From the NCBI GenBank assembly GCA_026419785.1, contig JAODTK010005076.1:1-64000 (forward strand): a stretch of DNA of 64,000 nt. The letters run 5' to 3'. This document shows, one piece after another, positions 4,390-59,800 of this stretch. The notes below the pieces were generated by a model, which saw only the letters and a program-made list of their open reading frames with translations, was not told where the DNA came from and searched no databases. Position 1 is the stretch's first letter, and each line of letters begins with the position of its first letter. The DNA is from Sclerodactyla briareus (lineage: Eukaryota > Echinodermata > Holothuroidea > Dendrochirotida > Sclerodactylidae). The translations under genes and the position numbers were made by a program.

Positions 4390-5970
4390 CTCCTCATGTC
4401 AACCACAGGAACCTTTTGTGTATTATAGGTAATTCTGAAATATTAAAATGAGATCTTTAAATTAGTTACATACACAAGTTGACATTCAAGGTTGATGACA
4501 GGGCAGGATCCCTCAAAACATAAAGTTCATGAGTCTTGACAGGCTAGCCAATGACAGGATTCCTCAAAAAAAAATCCAGGAGAGAAGTAGAGTGTCCTTG
4601 AACAGGCTAGGCCAACGAGAGGATTCCTCGACTAAAGTTATCGACTCCTTGAACAGGTAGCCAAGATAGGATACCTCAAAAATAAAGTTCATAGAGTCCT
4701 TGAACAGGCTAGGCCAATGACGGATTCAACAAAATTAAAGTTCATAGAGAGGTCCTTGAACAGGCAGTGAATGACCGGATTCAACAAAATAAAGTTCATA
4801 GGTCCTTGAAACAGTATAGCCAATGACAGGATTCCTCAACATAAAGCCATCGAGTACTTGAACAGTTAGCCAATGACAGGATTCCTCAAAATAAAGTTAT
4901 TCAGAGTCCTTGAAAGGCTAGCCCATGGCCGGGGGACTCTCAAAATAAAGTTCCATAGGAGTCCTTGAAACAGGCGAGCCAATGACGGGATTCTCAAAAT
5001 AAAGTCATAGAGTCTGGACAGGCTAGCCAATGCCAGGATTCCTCAAAATAAAGTCCATAGAGTCCTTGAACAGGCTAGCCAGGACAGGATCCTCGAAATA
5101 GTTCATAGGTCCTTGGACAGGCTAGCCCAATGACCGATTCCTCAAAATAAAGTCCATAGAGTCCTTGAACAGGCTAGCCAATGACAGGATCAGCAAATAA
5201 CAGTTCATAGAGTCCTTGGACAGGCTATCCCATACAGATTTCCTCGAAATAAAGTTAGAGAGTCCTTGGACAGGCTAAGCCAATGACGATTTCCTCGAAA
5301 TAAAGTTCCTAGACTCCTTGGACAAGGCTAGCCAATGACAGGATTCCTCAAAATAAAGTCCATAGAGTCCTTGAACAGGTAGCCAATGACAGGATGCCTC
5401 AAAATAAAGTTCATGAGTCCTTGGACAGGCTAGCCATGACAGGATTCTAGAAATGCAAGTCCATATAGCCAGGGATAGGATTCCAGTCCATTGAGTCTAG
5501 AAACATGGTTCATGTATCATGGAACACTTATTATTAGGTATTAGGTGAATTTAACCCGGATATATAAATTAGTTTTATATGACTCATATGAGTACATTCA
5601 AGGGCGTACCAAGGCTTGGCAGATTTTATTGAGTCCCTAAAAGATTAGCTGAGAGTCGTGGCAGTATCAGCCAAGTCTAAAATTAGATGAAACCTACACT
5701 CTCCATGGCTTTCAAAACACATATGGGGAACCTAGCCAGGGACAGGATTCAAGTCCATCAAGTCCAGGAACACATGTTCAGGTCATAATGGAACCACTTC
5801 AGGTATAGGGATTATGGAATATTAAAAACAGGATATCACTACTCTAATTTAGTACATTACAAGGTGCGAACAAAAGGCTGGGCAGATTATATTTGGGAGT
5901 CATTAAACAGGTAGCTGGAGTAGTGGCATATCAGCCAAGTCTACAATCAGCGAAACCTACACTCTCAATG
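4390..5970. repeat. ~52-bp satellite array nested in a ~255-bp repeat
   Basis: About 19 copies of a unit reading roughly GGCTAGCCAATGACAGGATT, CCTCAAAATAAAGTTCATAG, AGTCCTTGAACA run from 4490 to 5480, each with several indels. Flanking it, 5455-5700 and 5710-5965 are two copies of a ~255-bp unit (both contain TATCAGCCAAGTCTA and GAAACCTACACTCTC), and 4390-4490 resembles its first half. The array therefore probably grew inside the longer repeat. Confidence 0.88.
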
Positions 5971-32119: not shown

Positions 32120-32645
32120 ATCTACTTTGACAATCCTGTTGAACCAACAGATGGTCTCTGGTATGACCCAACGTTAGGCTCTGTAATAACCTAACATAGC
32201 TCTGGTATGAACGAACACTAGCCCTGGTATGAGCCTAAAATTATCTCAATTGTCTCTGGTTCGACCAAACAATGGCCTTTGCCATGACCACAACAACTGT
32301 CTCTGGTATGAGGCAGACAAGGTCTCTGGTATAACCAACCAAGAGTCTCTAGTATAACCCACACTGTCTTTTCGGCAAATGACCATAAAAGTGTTTCAGT
32401 TTGAGCAAATGATGGCTCCCATTATTACCCAACATTGTTATTGATATGATTTAACAATGGCCTCTAGTATGACCCAACAGTGGTCTTCATTACGACCCCA
32501 CAATGGTCCCCATCAGGACACAACAATGTCCCATGACACAACAATGGTATATGGTATCACCAACTTGTCTCCCGACTTGCCAGTCAATGACCTCTCGTAT
32601 GACCCAATCTGGATTTCTGGACTGACAACGGCAGGATTAACGGAC
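32120..32645. repeat. Diverged minisatellite, unit about 23 bp
   Basis: Units such as GTCTCTGGTATGACCCAACA repeat about 20 times with heavy drift (TCTCTGGTATAACCAACC, CCTCTAGTATGACCCAAC). Confidence 0.8.
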
Positions 32646-44800: not shown

Positions 44801-47800
44801 AATCCTCAAATGCCACAAGAACAAAAAAAAAAAACAATAACAGTTACAATAACAGTACAATATCTTATCTAACATGTTCTCTGTATGATTGTGGGGCTAT
44901 TGTCAATAACACATGTTATCAAATGCAGAATTGCAGCTTCACTGTGTAAGTTTTAGGGGTGGCCTCTGGCAGGACCCCCTGTAGGGTCATCATTCTGAAT
45001 GAATTGAAACAATTCAACAGGCAACATATGCGAGATCCTTTTTTGTATTGCCCACTTTCCCCGTGTAGTTGAAGGGAATTTGTGAAGGCCCATTTTGAAG
45101 AATCAGTGAGTGTCAAAACGAGGATAATGGGGGTTCGGCCACCATGGATGAAGGAAGACGAAACTGGAGAAACAACAGAGCAAGAAGTTAAGCCTGCCTG
45201 CACACTGTAGGAATTGCTGTGCAAGGTTAGATCAATTGGCAATCATGGTCGCTGCGTGACCGAGACGGTGAGGCGACGATGTCCGGTTTGGAGAATACGC
45301 AAGGCCCACTAGTAAGGAATTGTTGTAATAGCTCCACTACTCAAGCTTATCCTCTCCTCTCTGCTTCTCCTCTCTGCTTCTCATCTGCTGCTTCTCCTCT
45401 TCAATGATTCTCGCAGGAGGTCCAGAAAGAACCTCAAAATATAAAACACCTGTTCGCCTGCCGCTATTTTCGCAATGTGAGACAATTTTTTTTTTAACAA
45501 CCATGAGATGAACTACGGCTACGAACTTGGATGTACAACAATCTTTATAAATTTGCATGAATCCTGCAATTTAGTCACACTAAACAACTTCTCCGATCAG
45601 GAACTGTTATCTCCTGTTAAAATTAAACAGGATCAGTAGACCTTATCCCAATTTTTCTGAAAAACCAAACAAAGTCTCATAAACCAGCACCCACTTACCG
45701 ATCAGGAATATCTACGTTTTCAAAGTCACAGGGTAATCTCACAATAGCAAATTCTCTTGAATTAGTATGATCTTCCGGGGAAAAAATTTAGTAGTTAAAA
45801 AGTAGTTGTATAAACACTGAACGGCACCGACACACAAAAATTTCACGTTAGGGGATATCATGATGCACCATATGGTAACTTGATAACTCAGATCATATGA
45901 AGATTAGACATATCGTAAATGACATCCAGTGACCATGGTTTTACTCAAGATTTTTCACTACCAAAGGAAGACACAATCTGCAATTGTTTAATGTGAATCA
46001 GACAACCTTGAAAACTTGCATGAATTATGTGAATTATTTCACATTGAATGTCAATGACTCAAAATTGAATCTAGTTGGACTGAAGAGAGACAATATCACT
46101 TAAGTTCTGTTGAAAAAGCCAACAAACTTCAAGAAAAACAAAACAAAACAAAAAAAAAAAAATCAAAAAACATGAATTAGTGAATAGACAATACTCAATT
46201 AGCCATATACTATTTGGCCCAAAAATTCAATCAGCATGTGTCCATTTCATAGCTGTCATACACACAAAGGATAATCCTGAAACACAAGCTTTCAGGCCAA
46301 ATTTCGAATAATTGGGGAATTTGGGCGAGTAGTAGTTGTGATTGTTTGAGGCTGAAAAGGGGAGACACAGAAACATTTGGATCAGGACATACCAGACGAA
46401 ATGTCAGCAGTAGCATGGTCCATCCCCATTTGCGACTAGCACTCTAACTGCAAATAATTTTTTTGTATGACTCCGATCTAATAATAAACAAACATAGGAA
46501 TCCACCTCCTCACGATCCTTCAAAATGATACCTAACCGGGCCCTATCCAGTGAAAATTCAGAAAATAGTGAAGAATACAAATCAGTAATTTCTCTGAAAC
46601 CCCACCTCCCAATTTGCGCATTTGCAAAGGGGTCGGACCTGCCACTAAATCAGACTTTTTTCAGGAAGTAATATAAAAGGTACAGATGATACTCATTCTA
46701 TGAAAAAATTGGATTTGACTAATGGAAGACGATTGGAAACAGCACGAAGACTGAAAACAATTTGCCGATTTTCGGAATTAGGCTACCATCTTAGGCTACG
46801 GATTTAGTGTGGTCGGTATAAGGGACAGTTGCGCAAATTGAGGGTAGTTGACGATAGAACCCAGACCTCCACTCACCGTCAAGGATTTCCGCGCAAGCCT
46901 CCCAGCTGGTGATCTGGAGATGTCTTCATCGTAGACCTTCTCGTTTAAGTACGCTGCCGTGGGTTTTTTCCAGACTTTCTGGCGGAGTCTAACCTGCGGC
47001 ACAGAGAAGAAGAGGGGTATGTACCTCATTGGAATAAGATAACATGACTGTTGAATGTCTCTATTAATTGGACTCTGGTCCATAACTGACTTAAATTGAG
47101 GGCGGGGGCTTCATTTTGGCCTCCATTTTGTTCCGCAGGAGTGGTCACAGTGACTGATAAGATGAAACCCCGCCCTCCAATCTGCTATGTGACAATATAA
47201 GTTATGGGTTGCAAATTAAGGCACCTGATTGGCCTTAGATATGCAATTTAGAAATTCGGTTTTAGCGCCAACCTCATTGGACAACATAGTCGCCTACAGC
47301 AGATAAGTGTTAAAATAACCAGACAAGTTTTCAAGTTTTCAGGTAACACTACCATTAACAAACCTGCCCCAGGAGCCTCCGATTCCAAGCTTCCTATCAT
47401 GATGCCTCTCAAATAGAAAGAACCGACAGCAGACAGAAATTTTTCAACAGGCATTCTCTAGTTCCATGGAATCCTGCAACAACGCGAGTCATGAACCACA
47501 CACCAACCACACAACAACGTGATCACTGAGCTCTTTTCCAACTTGGTTCATTGAGAAAAACCAGCACCACAGTTTTTTCGAAGCCAGTAGACGTGGCAAG
47601 GTTATTTTCTTACCTCTCAGTGCCTTGCGTTCTTACCTCTCACCGGTCTAACCTCTCAGTGCTGCTGCGTTCTTACCTCTCGTGCTTGCTTCTTACCTCT
47701 CAATGCTTTTGCGTTCTTACCTCTCAAGGCTTGCGTTCTTATTTACCTCTCAATGCTTGCGTTCTACCCTCTCAATGCTTGCGTTCTTACCCTCTCATGC

Positions 47801-50800
47801 TTGCGTCCTTACCTCCACTGCTTGCGTCCTTACCTCTCATGTTGCGTCTTACCTCTCATGCCGATGTGAGATTTGATGCCATCGTAGCACATATTGCTGG
47901 AAGGAGTTTGTACTTGGACTCTTTGACTGTCATGCCCTTTGCCAGAACCCACTCGACAGAAGGAATTTACAAGGCTGCAGAGTTTTTTGGCGAGAAGGAA
48001 TGACAAAGAGTCAGACCCTTCAACAAATATCTACATGGAAATGAAACATCACATGTGTGCCTTTTTCATCACCCCCTACGGAAACCAGAAAATACCATAA
48101 GCCTATGCTAGTATCTGCATTTGGTTGTTCTGCAGTAATTGATCACCTTCTCAGTACCAAGAGACTTGGCAGAACAAACACCCGAATGCCTCAAAAATTT
48201 CCCCTATTATCTAACAGCGAGCGCCAAAAGTGTCTTCCCTGTTGCGCGATCAGGGGTTTGTATTATTCACTCACACCAACAACCAACTAGTCATGCAGAC
48301 CATTGTCATGTCAAATGGACTAACCCCCCTTCGTTAAGGGGTCTACTTAACGAGGGGTGTTGAAGCGGCCGTTTGCCGAAAATGCAATTTGTTATTAAGT
48401 CCAGAAGGTAAGTGCCCTGAAGTAAGTAAATCACAATTTTCACTATAACACATTGAAAATTCCTAAAATACTGACCAATATGTGTTCTCCTCAATACAAA
48501 CGGTCCCTTATTGTAACCCAAATTTGAAATAAAGTTTTAATCGCTCACAACTCACTCACTTCCCCCCAAATCCACGTGTTTCTAAATCCCCCTTAGCAGC
48601 CTGGCTCCTTTGCCTTTAAAAAATCATAATTGCCTTCATTTTCCTTCATTGTCTTACGATGAATATTTTCTATTCATCTATGCAGGACATTATGGCATTG
48701 TATGCACAAGTGAGTGAAAATGGTGGGCCATCCAGGCCACATATCGGGGGGAGGGGGGGGGGGGGGGCTGTCGTGCACAACGTCCGCGAAGTAAGAGGAA
48801 TAGGGGAAGAAAAATGTTACATTATTCTTGTACGGTCAATCACCTAAGCAATTGGCTTGGGAATAGGATGGTTTGCTTGTGGCAGCTTATAACAGCATTA
48901 AATTGTCACAAGGAGCTATGGTTTACATCCTTCCTCCGTGCTTCATTCTAACAGGAGCTATTACTGTAATGAGTAATTCAACTCAAATTCATGAACATCA
49001 AACGACGTCAGAATCCAGAAATGTTCACCAGACCATCCTACTACTGAGTTTGAGGAATTCTTATTAAGTTGGAAATTGGATAATTGGTGCCAATTAGCAC
49101 ATCCAATGACCTCTATCGACCCGCTGGACCGTCTAAGTAGGAATCAGGATCAAAGGTGGATCACATTTACCCAAGTTTGTGGCAATCCAACAAACTTTAA
49201 ATAGCAAATATAATAAGATATCTCGTTCTTATATAGCGCTTATCCACGTCAAAGACAATGCTTAAAGCGGTTCAATATAATTACCCCTCCCATTTAGTGA
49301 ATTGTCACAAACCCCCTACCATAGCATGCACTCTCGCTTGTTCTCTCCCAATGCACCATTCTCTCCCAGTACGTCGCTTCATCAAATCATCAATCGGTCC
49401 TCCCGGGGGACTTCCCAATAGGGCTGTGCAATCGGCGCTCGCTACTCTTCACAATCACCTCACAAGGTACCCACTTTAACTCCCACGTGGGTTGCGTGTA
49501 ACATTCAGGAGCCATCCTCGTCCAACAGCAACTGCGGGAAAGTCCTCTCGGGCTTCCAAGGGCTCCGAACTCAAAATCAATGGTTTTGCAGTCGAGCTCT
49601 ACCAACCACTGAGCTAATCCGCCTCCCTTACACATTAAATGGACCTCCAGTGACCCCGACTACTTCACTTGAATTCCTCGGTAACCATGGTAGACACACA
49701 TCCACCAAGTTATCCAAGAAAATCCAACAAACTTTGGAAAATTTGCAGAAAATAATGCAAATTAGATTAATTAATTAATAATAGTTCCATCTACCCACCC
49801 TGCCATCCAGTCTTACATGCCAAACTACTCAACTGTAACACATACGTTCTGCATAATCTTGCTCATGAAGCCTAAACAATACTTACTAAAAAAAGCTGAT
49901 TACCCACTAACAGATCGCTTACACACCCAACCCCGTGCTAACGCAAAATTCCCGTCATAATCGGCCTCACGGTTTTGTGAGAAATCCTGCTACAAGAAAG
50001 TGTGACATCACACACACAAACATACACACACCAAAGTGACCACTAAGTCTCTGAATTCAATTCAGGCGAGACAAAAAATAAATCAAGACTGTTCCTTAGA
50101 CAGAAAAAATCTTCGGAAGTATTCCACTCATCAATAACTCTCTGCGATAAGGAAGATTTTGAATGTCCATCTACGGTTTTACCACAAGCTGACTAAATAT
50201 GGCTGACCATCAGGGAAAGGACTCACATGGAGTTACTTTGGATTGACAATGAATTCACGATTTGCCAGACTATGCCCATGGTACTGGAGGCCACGATAAC
50301 CAGGCTAAGTAAAAAAATAGGTTAATAACAAACATCTCTCTGGAATTCCTTAAATATTCAATTGGAATCCAACTCAGTGAAGAGGAGGGTTACGAGACGG
50401 CGGGCGATAGATCTGGGTTCTAAACCTTTCATCTACCTCCGGAGAAGCCCGTGTCATGTTCTACGAGTTTGGAGAACCCCAGGTGGTGATTGATGGCACC
50501 CTTTTGGGGATTTTTCCCATTATGTTACAAGATACAAAAACATCATTTGTTGTATCGTAAAAGCCCACCCCCCCCTGTTTTGCCCGCTCTTACTTTTTCA
50601 AGAACCCCCGGCTCTACTTTTTGAATACCCCTGTGGACCCAGTTGCACCACAGATCCTAAATAACTTTTGGCAACCTCATGACCTGGGCCCTGTGGCCCC
50701 CTACGTTGAGGTGATATGCCAAGCCTACCTTTGCATTGATATAATTCTCTAACCTATCACTAGATGTTTCTCACCTTCAGGTTCGTTAGGTGATAAAAGA

Positions 50801-53800
50801 GCTAAGCTTCACTCTGTAATCCCCCTTCTTCCGAGCCCTGCCAGCCTGATCCTATCTGGCTGTCGTCATTGTAGGAGGCAGCGTCTCGTTCATCGGATGC
50901 TCTCAAACTCTTGGCTGTTGGCGTAAACCCTGTAGACCTGAAATATCAACAAGATTCCAGTATTCATCAGGCCTATAATGCGGCAGGCATTGAGTGCTTT
51001 CAAATATTAACAAAATATTACATTTGAGAGAGTGAGCCTTTAAAAATAGTTAGCTGGAACACTGCGCGAGATGGGTTCTGGAGATGCATAACCATCTCAT
51101 CAGAATGCTATCATTTCAAGGAGGGGTGCATGAAGGTTGAAGACACAAAAGCCAAACCAGGAAAAAAATATTAAGGTATCATATTAAGGGCAATATACTC
51201 TGCAGAAATAGATTTGCTTTCCTCATCCGTGTGCTGTGTGCACACAGCATCCGTTCAGCCAAGTCAAGCAAAAATGGACGACTAAAGCACCATACAGAGA
51301 TGTGACCAGCTCAATCAGAAGATTAGGCGTTCAAATTCTGCGGAGGATCGATCAGCCTTCCTGGCATACCTAAGCAAAACAACCCGGGCGGGCACTTCTG
51401 AAATCGGTCATGTAAACAATTTTTCCAACCCACCGCGTGTCCGCGTGGTATTCCGGGGATTCCCTGCAATCTCACCAGCTTATAGCCCGATAATGGAGAG
51501 TTAGAGGGACAATGATGTTCAAATAATGTGCAAAACAACATTCTAACTGTTTCAACACTAGGGATGAGATTTCATACAGAGTGTCTCTATTTTTAATGGG
51601 CCGGAACCTATTGAACAATATTTACAGTTTAAACCATGATGTGTCAGTATTGCTAATAAATCCCAAAACCTGTCAATTGTGAAGTTTAATAGGGGCCGTA
51701 ATTGTGACATTTGAACAATGTTTTTCAGAAAATGAACACGGTGTTTAGGTTTAAAACACTAGTATGCAGGTCGGTGTTTTTGAATAATAATTGTAATGAT
51801 AATAATAATAATAATATAACAAAATAATAATAACGATACTTACTTACTTGAAGCAATAAAGATTATTATACTAACAAGAACACAATGATTCTGTATAAAA
51901 CAAGCAACAAATCAGGAAAAAACCTTGTGAAAGTAAACCTGCAACAGTGATCAATAGGGCCCCAGGACGCCAATCAAGAGGATCGTCTCAATCATAGCAT
52001 AAATGAGGTGGTAAAAGAGTCGCTACAAACTATTTTTCAATTACTTTGAAATTTTCGGAAATGTACCAACATAGTCTTTGAGGCACTCTTTGAAATAACA
52101 GCATCATCTCTTGTCTAAGTAAACGACCAAAATGAAGGAGGCATTTGATAGTGGGGAAAAATATGTTAAGAATGTTAATCAGCATAATTTTTTTAATTTT
52201 TTTCAATGATAATTCCAATTGTGCTTGAGGTGCTGACATTGATTCTCAGCAGTGGTATGTCCAAACCCTACACCTTACACCTGTAAGCACTGGCTTAGAC
52301 CCAGGGTGAGGAAATACCCTCCCCCTCAATAGTCCAACAACAATTTTTATATAAGGAAAGGAAAAGGAGTGGCTAGTAGCAGACGTACATTTTAGCATGT
52401 ATCTAATTCTTCTGGCTGTAAGTAACGATTTAATCAAGCAATGTTCTGTGGTGTACTGGCAACACTGAGGAGAGACCTGTTGCAATAATTGGTAACCAAC
52501 ATGTTATGAATGTCAATACTTTCCTTCTGAATTAAATCAATCAAATGAACTTCTTTCAGATCAAATTCATAATTTCTATGTAAGGCTCTCCAAAAGCTAA
52601 ATTTTTTAGTTTTGCATTAAACAGCTGCAACGAACTGGAAACCGAAACGCCCATCAGGTTAGATTGATACGAGGCTCTGGAATTTGTGCCTGAAAGGACA
52701 TCAAGGGAATCTTCGCCTTCTCTTTTTTGAATGTACCCTGAAGCGCACGGCAGAGAAGCCCGCTAAACCGCCCCCGACCTCCGGAGGATGTGGGCGCAGC
52801 CTTCGAAGTGCAGCTTCTTCACCTACACTACGAATATGCGAGGGGTAAATTTGAGTTAGATGACACTGAGGTTCAAACCAAGGGCTGAGGCGCGAACCCT
52901 CTCGCTCTATTACCCCGCAAGTATGGCCTCCAATGAGATGTGTTGCAGCACCTCTTGTTTTTTATTTCTTCAGGCCCTGAAGGCCAATTAGATATTATAT
53001 CAGTTTGCTGTTTCACTTATAATTACTACTATGGGTTGCCAGAGTGATGGTTGCTATGTTATCCACTTATGGTGGTTTAGGAAAAACCAGTCAGGGAAGA
53101 GCGATATGTCAACTGCACTGATTCAAGGTTGTTATCCCAGTTGGGAGAGAACAATTTAACAGGTAAACTGCTATCACATATTTCCACGTGGCCACAACAT
53201 CTCTAACTGGATCATCCCAGGCATACACAGCACAGGCAATGTGTTGAAAAACATCTTGCTGATTTTGTCTCTGTCAGGATATCAATAAAAAAGGACACAA
53301 GAGCATCACTATGAATATTACTTTCTGACTTTCATTTTACGTAACTTGGATTTTGGAAATGCCCACTCTGTCTCCATCTTCATCTTCTCATCCTCCACCT
53401 TGAAGTACCAGTTGCTATACTGCCAAGCAGGGGAATAGCTACCATCAGAGTCATCCTGGTCCTCGCGGTTTTCTCTCGATCCCTCGTGTTGTATGGCGCC
53501 CTCACAACTGGACCTCCTCCTCCGGACCTTGTTTCCTTCTGTCACTACACTACCCCCCTCTCGGTTACTATTGTCCTCACAATTCTCTGGGGCAGCCTCC
53601 TTGTCCCAGTCTTCCTGTGTGGGGACTTTGAGCAGATGTTCATTGGGGACCTCGGTGCTACTGGCCCTGCTACCACCCGTGGCCTGGTCCCCTGGCAGGG
53701 CAGGGCCACAGGCTTGATTCTCCTCCCACCCCGCCCCTGAAGTCCTCTCCTCCCAGTTCGCCCCCGAGGCATTGTCCTTCTGCCAGTCGGACACAGAGAC

Positions 53801-56800: not shown

Positions 56801-59800
56801 TGCAATACATCCTTCTTCATCTGGGAGTTTCTACCAAAAGGTATATTGAACCATATTTTTGCTACTTATTGAAAACTTCATTAAATAATTCATGTTGGTA
56901 ATATCTGCAGTTTTTTAAAGTTCATTTTTCATGCTCAACCACTTTGTTATCATATCATTTCATCAATATAATCAATATCTCTGAGCCTGTCCTCCATCCA
57001 TGTAATTCAAGTGCGACTTCACTTTCAACAAAGTTGAATTTGTGAACTATACATTGGACAATAAAACTCACAGATTAGATTAGCAGATCAACCCTCCAGG
57101 TCGATGACAAACTGTCAAAAATCAGCCATATCATGTAACTGACACTGTTATTCTTTCAAGCATGTGTTTAGGTTGATAACTAAATCGCATATAAAACTGT
57201 ATGTAGGACCTAGGCTACGACTCATCATTTGAAGGTGTCATCAGACAGTTCCATGCAGTTTAGTCAGATGGATGTGAGTATTATTGTGTAACTCTATGAT
57301 AAAAATACTATTTAGTGTGGACAGGGAATACGAATACTGTCCAGGACGAATACAAAAAGTGTAACAACGTTGCCCCTTCAATGGACTATGGTCCCACCTT
57401 AGCTATCTTCACCCTCAGGTCGGCCACGGACATGCTGAGGTACACCCTGGTCCTGACGGGGTAGCCTATGCACCCCTCAGCAAGGTCCACATTGTACACC
57501 CTCAATGACGCCCCTGGAGGAGAAAGAAAACAAAACGAAGGAGAATGAGTGAGAAATGCAAGGGACACACAAATCAGACTAGGGGTACACAATTGAGATA
57601 GAACATTCGGGTCGAAGAACAACTGTTAAATTTCAGGCAAAGAGTAAGCACAAATGCCAATTCTTCTTTGCTTACACCACATTCATTGCTGCCACTGTTC
57701 CTTATCATGTTGCACCGTCTTGAAGCATGTATACCTCCCTCAGTGATGCCTTACTGGCAAAAAATCTGAACCATAATATCTCCACATGTCTTCGCCAGCA
57801 AATTTTCTTGTTAACTCGATAACTTTGTCGGATTGACTTGAAACTTTGCACACACGTTTATCAGATAAAATCTTGAATGAGTTCAAAAAGTGGGCGTTGC
57901 CGCAACACCACCACGGCGGCCAGCTTGGGTTTTTGACAAAACTTTATCATCGCAGATTTGCATATTTGGGAACATCGCGACCATCTTGGAACCAACTTGC
58001 ATTTCAAGTTGTCTGCAACCGACTAACTAATTTGGCTTGTCACAAACTTGGAAACCCTTAGGCCTATAGCAAACTTTTTACAAAACTTTCCGCACACCAC
58101 AACCTAGGCTCATGGATACTCTTTGATGTCAAATGAGATTGACATAGTCGCTCACTGACTGCTCAAATGTGGGTTGTACACGTTGGCGATTCACCACCGA
58201 CAGATGTTTCATAAATGTGCTATTTTCGTGAATCCATGTTCCAATAGACATGTAGGCTCGCTTAAGTGTTTGCACCCTGGCAGAGCCCTTCTTCTAGAAT
58301 GAATATGGTGACACACCTCAATGATTTGACCCCATTTGATCATTAATTGACAAGAACAACAGCGAATTGTGATAGCTGCTCCCACCCCACTCACCCCCGG
58401 TCCTGTAGCTCTCAAACTCCTGATTGGCAGCCCTCGTCTCCAGGAAGAGGTCAAATATGTAGGGGGACTTGACCCCGCCTAGGATGGTCCCAATGGGGGT
58501 GTCAGGTGGGTCGTCGAAGGACTGCTCTATGTTCTCGTGGAACTCGTCGTATTTGACAAGTCTGCACCTGTACAGATATTGCACCCTCAAATTCTAAAAG
58601 CTGGAAAAGGAGAGAAAATTTTGTAGTTGAACAATCAGTGGTGAAATAAGTTGAGAAATATAAGACCTGTTCTCAATATGCATTTCTACAGTACGCAGGT
58701 CACTTAAAGGCTTACAGAAAATAACCAACTGCTCGAAAACTCAAAAATAACTGAGAGTTGGAGCATTGGCCATAACTGGCTCAGTGACGGGGTCTGACCA
58801 TATTATTAGCAAGGTGTTGGCTCACAGAAAACCCTGTTTGCCACTTCAGTGAGGTACATGTGAGTCACTGGTAGACCAGCTCTTCCTATTTATTTTCTGG
58901 ACATCCAAGTAAAATGACATACCCCAGAGCCAGCCTTGTGACTGCCATTCAAGGGAAGTGAGGTACATGTGAGTCACTGGTAGACCAGCTCTTCCTATCT
59001 ATTTTCTGGACAATCCAGTAAAATGACATACCCCAGAGCCAGCCTTGTGACTGACCATTCAGGGAAGTGAGGTACATGTGAGTCACTGGTAGACCAGCTC
59101 TTCCTATTTATTTTCTGGACAATCCAAGTAAAATGACATACCCCAGAGCCAGCCTTGTGACTGACCATTCAAGGGAAGTGAGGTACATGTGAGTCACTGG
59201 TAGACCAGCTCTTCCTATTTATTTTCTGGACAATCAAGTAAAATGACATACCCCAGAGCCAGCCTTGTGACTGACCATTCAAGGGAAGTGAGGTACATGT
59301 GAGTCACTGGTAGACCAGCTCTTCCTATTTATTTTCTGGACAATCCAAGTAAAATGACATACCCCAGAGCCAGCCTTGTGACTGACCATTCAAGGGAAGT
59401 GAGGTACATGTGAGTCACTGGTAGACCAGCTCTTCCTATTTATTTTCTGGACAATCCAAGTAAAATGACATACCCCAGAGCCAGCCTTGTGACTGACCAT
59501 TCAAGGGAAGTTATGCACATGTGTGAGTCACTTTGGATTTGATTTGAATTTTTATTTGATCCTACGGGTTCAGGAAGCCAATGAAGGCTCATCTAGGAAC
59601 CCTGGCTGTATTGATCGTGGATGAGCCCCGGCGATAACTCGCCTTCTCTTCTCGACTAGTGCTCAGATGTTAACGAGGCAGGGGTTGTAACCAATCCCAG
59701 CCTGCTCCTGGGACCGCCATTTTACGTCCCCATCCGAAATGACTATCAGTGAACTCCAGGACCTGACCACTGTACTCAGGAAATGGAAGAGAGAAAGTTC

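Follow-up and report, generated by a model that had tools for sequence, protein, structure and literature searches.

Minisatellites at exon-intron boundaries and the USP47 array

Minisatellite-like duplications of exon-intron boundaries, called mirages, have been described in the lancelet globin, Adh3, TnC and PGBD5 genes (PMC3087553; PMC3902484), and we describe here a structure of this kind in the holothuroid Sclerodactyla briareus, where a 22-nt tandem array overlaps the 3' end of one of the coding exons of USP47 in the first 64,000 nucleotides of contig JAODTK010005076.1 (assembly GCA_026419785.1), hereafter the window. According to passages of these two reports, many mirage units carry AG/GT (the slash marks the exon-intron boundary), the Adh3 units measure 10-72 bp, alleles of the BflGb6 mirage differ in length (6 vs. 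3 units), and regular splicing is reportedly left undisturbed, with no aberrant mRNAs (PMC3087553; PMC3902484). A passage of the former adds that the extra splice sites could give alternative transcripts, and the same source describes intron gain by tandem duplication of AG/GT segments (PMC3087553). In humans, the minisatellite of IFI6 (6-16) provides several splice donors, two downstream units being used, and three mRNA species arise via downstream repeat units, as related in part of PMC4526556; Turri 1995 is cited by title for this minisatellite in PMC4526556 and PMC2572611. Moreover, an excerpt of PMC2812944 states that, in human segmental-duplication genes, variable internal tandem repeats alter gene structure where they lie across exon-intron boundaries.

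The USP47 array lies on the minus strand, begins in the last bases of the exon and consists of 12 units of about 22 nt, each combining the coding exon end (I-E-R) with the intron start (Table 1). Tandem Repeats Finder (TRF) gave a period of 22, 11.6 copies, 76% match and 17% indel, in agreement with a sequence-only reading that had proposed about twelve copies and the same exon limits. The consensus unit, CATTGAGAGGTAAGAACGCAAG, codes for N-A-S-I-E-R in one frame; the human counterpart of I-E-R is presumably I-D-R, within S-I-D-R. When the array is split at each GT, successive GTs stand 16 to 26 nt apart in the assembly, so that the proposed spacing of about 22 nt holds as a period but not as a constant distance. 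Similarly, the statement that every unit repeats GAGAG/GTAAG was too strong, since GAGAGGTAAG is exact in 7 of the 12 units and AG/GTAAG is present in 8, while unit 4 reads AGG/GTAAG and weakened forms (GTAGAA, GTAAAT and GTTAGA) stand in units 5, 6 and 10. With one mismatch allowed, the window holds 14 occurrences of GAGAGGTAAG, of which nine fall within the array, and none of 100 window shuffles reached 14 (mean 2.83, maximum 8). Additionally, nine of the 46 minus-strand GT sites of the window that match CAG/GTAAGT at 7 or more of 9 positions are inside the array, and outside it no 260-nt stretch on either strand of the window has more than three such sites.

The identity of the host gene was established from the two exons that flank the intron. 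Joined via donor 1, with X placed at the frameshift and at the stop, they matched Pfam USP47_C over profile positions 14-80 (E=9.5e-10, 38.9 bits, cut-off 27), whereas the next exon alone gave a weak match below the cut-off (profile 49-80, E 6.3e-4). The exon with the array reads PCKFLLSSGF and then AKGMTVKESKYKLLPAICATMASNLTS in another frame. Further USP47 exons follow in order on the minus strand from 58566 down to 38769 (tblastn with a human USP47 reference; the exon and frameshift counts are approximate), the one at 38.8 kb being probably the last. A probe with the peptide of one USP47 exon hit the 319-Mb assembly at a single place, and a 20-base unit pattern with at most two mismatches has three places genome-wide, all within the array. 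No second copy of the array or exon was found among 49 matches to the surrounding 1800 bases, self aside (40 of 958 candidates scored), which leaves no second allele for comparison. A pseudogene was considered and rejected, given the single genomic place of the exon peptide and the many frameshifts that come with no in-frame stop in the aligned exon stretches.

Table 1. Features of the USP47 locus (window coordinates) and of further donor-motif arrays in the same genome
Feature	Position	Strand	Details
USP47 exon (C-terminal region), 3' end repeated	47853..47974	minus	acceptor ctctgcag/CCTTG; reads PCKFLLSSGF, AKGMTVKESK
22-nt minisatellite	47607..47858	minus	12 units; unit = ~10 nt exon end + ~12 nt intron start; TRF and unit alignment
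TGA in conserved frame at exon end	47856..47858	minus	two codons before donor 1; possibly assembly error
Donor 1 (GT), exon-proximal	47851..47852	minus	joining here collinear with USP47_C; U1 duplex -9.6 kcal/mol
Donor 12 (GT), intron-proximal end of array	47612..47613	minus	U1 duplex -9.6 kcal/mol
Intron, if donor 1 is used	46994..47852	minus	859 nt
Next USP47 exon	46877..46993	minus	acceptor ctgtgccgcag; reads VRLRQKVWKKPTAAYLNEKVYDED
L013, EGF exon-end array	C1746:545.1-546.0 kb		37-38-nt unit x24; unit repeats D-R-C-E-T-N-R/GTAAG; EGF E 2e-8
L066, EGF exon-end array	C2839:66.1-69.6 kb		~32-nt subunits; GFTGTNCEI/GTGAGTCA; EGF E 1.5e-8
L016, MRPL9-like exon-end array (moderate confidence)	C2492:77.1-78.2 kb	minus	38-39-nt unit, ~24 copies; ..KVILLEDVPG/GTAAGT
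L047, L050, possible exon-end arrays	C1626:21-30 kb		34-36-nt AGGTGAG arrays after similar open stretch (..GYQGK)
L069, possible exon-end array	C2965:543.1-543.5 kb	minus	Lys/Glu-rich open stretch after ..ccccag, ends GAG/GTCAGT

Like the lancelet mirages (Adh3, the globins BflGb6 and BflGb9, TnC and PGBD5), the USP47 array is a tandem repeat that spans an exon-intron boundary and carries splice signals in many but not all of its units (AG/GTAAG in 8 of 12); unlike them, it resides in a different gene and is known here from genomic sequence alone. The repeats of human segmental-duplication genes are also minisatellites at exon-intron boundaries, but they involve recent paralogs and novel introns. 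As in intron gain by AG/GT duplication, the duplicated segment contains AG/GT; no new acceptor or new intron was seen at the USP47 array, although neither was searched for systematically.

Other repeats are common in the window, including minisatellites at 4594-5447 (51-bp x16.6) and 32156-32528 (22-23-bp arrays) and a 111-bp tandem array at 58848-59532 (6.2 copies, 97% match) that lies some 280 bases away from the USP47 exon at 58566 and whose units contain GTGAGGTAC and GTGAGTC. Dispersed repeats flank the USP47 array at 47085-47316 and 48195-48323 and are 74-80% and 83-89% identical, respectively, to other places in the genome. A coding array on the plus strand was rejected, the 157-aa plus-strand reading frame at 47530-48003 being a by-product of a unit that is stop-free in all three plus frames, as judged by eye.

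Donor strength and the choice of splice site

Eight units have predicted U1 duplex energies between -9.6 and -10.1 kcal/mol, with -8.9 in unit 4 and -5.7 to -6.9 in the remaining three, and the six other USP47 donors that were placed by eye range from -6.9 to -11.5 kcal/mol. Eight array donors are thus about as strong in U1 pairing as the other donors of the gene, and the proposal that a USP47 exon donor was multiplied in tandem is supported. A GT donor could be placed by eye at 6 of the 10 USP47 exon ends displayed, and none was placed in this way at the ends at 56.5, 55.7 and 53.3 kb; the six placed donors are GTGAG or GTGGG and the amplified donor is GTAAG. Taken with short flanks, the array RNA folds less than every one of 200 shuffles, and because of this and of a purine content of 74% the donors are expected to be open and accessible. 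A structured RNA element was rejected on the same folding result, together with the lack of an Rfam match at the gathering threshold in the window.

Which donor would be used can be approached through the reading frame. An extension by n consensus units (22n nt) keeps the frame only when n is 3, 6 or 9, and any three consensus units read through always contain TAA or TGA; therefore, the consensus units offer no useful alternative donors. In the assembly the extensions to donors 7, 8 and 11 are divisible by three, but these donors, like donor 1, are not open owing to the TGA near the exon end. This unit arithmetic speaks for donor 1 as the site that would be used. We consider it probable that the USP47 array is a mirage-type minisatellite in which donor 1 is used and the rest are intronic passengers. 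Slippage or unequal exchange would have multiplied a short segment straddling the coding exon end (..I-E-R) and the first intron bases, after which the spliceosome would most likely take the exon-adjacent donor and the other units would leave with the intron. If a downstream donor were now and then used, the same arithmetic predicts a frameshift or stop and a product lost to surveillance. In all likelihood the additional splice signals do no harm, and donor 1 with its passengers would be the simplest working arrangement. Three more arrays of the same anatomy in this genome (L013, L066 and L016) also favor a mirage-type origin.

The stop codon before donor 1 and the state of the assembly

Several observations weigh against this interpretation. 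In the assembly the conserved frame runs into a TGA two codons upstream of donor 1, and whichever of the 12 donors is joined to the next exon, no path stays open in any of the three entry frames; the use of donor 1 therefore needs an assembly error. The TGA could be explained by three one-base run contractions relative to TCG-GGC-ATT-GAG-AGG, a sequence built from bases seen in the array units that codes for S-G-I-E-R, collinear with human S-I-D-R, and when the exon end was changed to read as in an array unit (GIER) the USP47_C score rose from 38.9 to 42.4 bits. However, the frame-breaking events found by frameshift-aware alignment comprise eight loss-like and six gain-like cases, not the pure losses that run contraction predicts. 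The use of a downstream donor is also plausible, because an intron-proximal donor is favored over its competitor when SRSF1 acts between them, as a passage of PMC5585400 indicates, and the array is rich in purines. Finally, the parallel with lancelets is one of kind and not of lineage.

The condition of the assembly around the gene is relevant to how the TGA is read. Of 11 USP47 exon regions aligned, nine were counted; those at 58600 and 38900 are clean and the other seven hold all 14 events, with the region 40000-39500 (poor alignment, six frameshifts), the region 57650-57350 (one tail event) and one tail event at 50788 left out. The assembly is locally poor in the exon at 50758-50943 (minus strand), where four single bases appear to have been lost within about 50 nt. 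No in-frame stop was found in the aligned exon stretches, outside which the TGA before donor 1 falls, and many frameshifts with no in-frame stop suggest uncorrected sequencing indels rather than gene decay. Because of these single-base indels, the exact spacing, copy number and frame given here are provisional. Besides, the array has 10.2 indels per 100 nt against 1.0 in the 111-bp array of the same window, and probably much of its divergence is real, or else the repeat consensus is poorer.

Other donor-motif arrays and competing explanations

The genome was searched for three AGGTAAG motifs with gaps of 6-30 nt and for three AGGTGAG motifs with gaps of 6-36 nt, with the reversed motifs as controls and the comparison made in rows, not loci. 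For AGGTAAG the search gave 15 rows, at 7 loci, where the reversed motif gave 62; for AGGTGAG it gave 62 rows, at 20 loci, where the reversed motif gave 85. Since there is no enrichment over the reversed motif, donor-like arrays are not favored as such in this genome, and some simply arose at donors. The upstream flanks of all 27 loci were viewed: four lie at coding exon ends (USP47, L013, L066 and L016), three possibly do, and no exon was seen by eye at the remaining 20. The Pfam search covered 99 open reading frames (ORFs) from the six other AGGTAAG loci but just five peptides from AGGTGAG loci, and therefore four exon-end arrays is a lower bound. The sequence-only reading had called arrays of splice donors uncommon, which is doubtful in view of these loci, the lancelet mirages and IFI6.

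More EGF-like stretches lie downstream of L013, whose first copy has an in-frame TGA as assembled. In L016, the consensus unit of 39 nt codes for KSVKVILLEDVPG in frame and is stop-free, so that every extra donor there could contribute a further 13 residues, in the manner of IFI6. Its assignment as MRPL9-like is of moderate confidence: a Ribosomal_L9_N match at 4.4e-4, found in one of the 99 ORFs and corresponding to the L016 array itself, reached 20.2 bits (one of seven ORFs), below the cut-off of 20.7, and a human MRPL9 query gave three weak tblastn matches (E 0.88, 7.3 and 1.3) ordered on one strand over L016 and L028 and a fourth on the opposite strand. L016 peptides read across frames had no Pfam match. 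L047 and L050, with no Pfam match either, may perhaps be duplicated genes sharing an exon-end array, and at L069 irregular ATTAAG/GTGAGT repeats follow the open stretch and resemble its end.

Could the extra donors have a function? In IFI6, as at USP47, the repeat units carry multiple splice donors, and IFI6 yields isoforms from downstream units, its unit being 12 nt long and in frame. The suggestion that the USP47 array gives graded, useful exon lengths in the same manner is not supported and is extremely improbable, since with a 22-nt unit the extensions frameshift or hit stops, and those divisible by three (donors 7, 8 and 11 as assembled, every third consensus unit) are not open; judged by its sequence, the array offers no translatable isoforms from alternative donors of the IFI6 type. 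Selected redundancy, in which spare donors would guard against mutation of the true donor, was also proposed. Many intact copies are indeed present, but a consensus spare donor would bring a frameshift or stop and could not replace donor 1, conservation of the donor core is not clearly higher than in the rest of the unit (10 errors at the 10 core positions vs. 26 at the 12 others; permutation p = 0.088), and the donor motifs are not enriched over their reversals, all of which makes this explanation very unlikely.

A further possibility is a copy-number rheostat, with extra donors sending a share of transcripts to stop-containing products removed by nonsense-mediated decay, so that repeat number would tune the level of USP47. 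Such a dial is possible as far as strong, accessible donors can support it, and every extension beyond about two consensus units meets a stop; nevertheless, the same p value does not clearly indicate that the donor core is under selection, the published mirages are, in the passages cited above, reportedly without aberrant mRNAs (PMC3087553; PMC3902484), and we regard the rheostat as very unlikely. As for an artefact in which long-read error inflated the copy number or corrupted units, the frame-breaking indels in seven of the nine exon regions counted and the indel excess over the 111-bp array agree with it. Yet near-neighbor units have variants in common (CATGAGAG in units 1, 2 and 4, GGACGC in 2 and 3, CAC in 9, 10 and 12), as in real minisatellites, and exon-end arrays occur at unrelated loci, which leaves the artefact with very little probability.

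Mirage-type structures are already known, and USP47 is an added gene among those with a minisatellite across a splice donor; the present genome indicates that at least four such genes can occur together in one animal. That the number of repeats determines what share of USP47 transcripts is unproductive, and that similar arrays act in this way at several genes of the genome, is very unlikely; if true, a fast-mutating minisatellite would act as a heritable and perhaps also somatic control on a deubiquitinase. These loci amount to natural experiments, with eight near-identical donors in 250 nt facing the same acceptor, from which splice-site choice can be read by position alone and in which allele length could be compared with transcript level.
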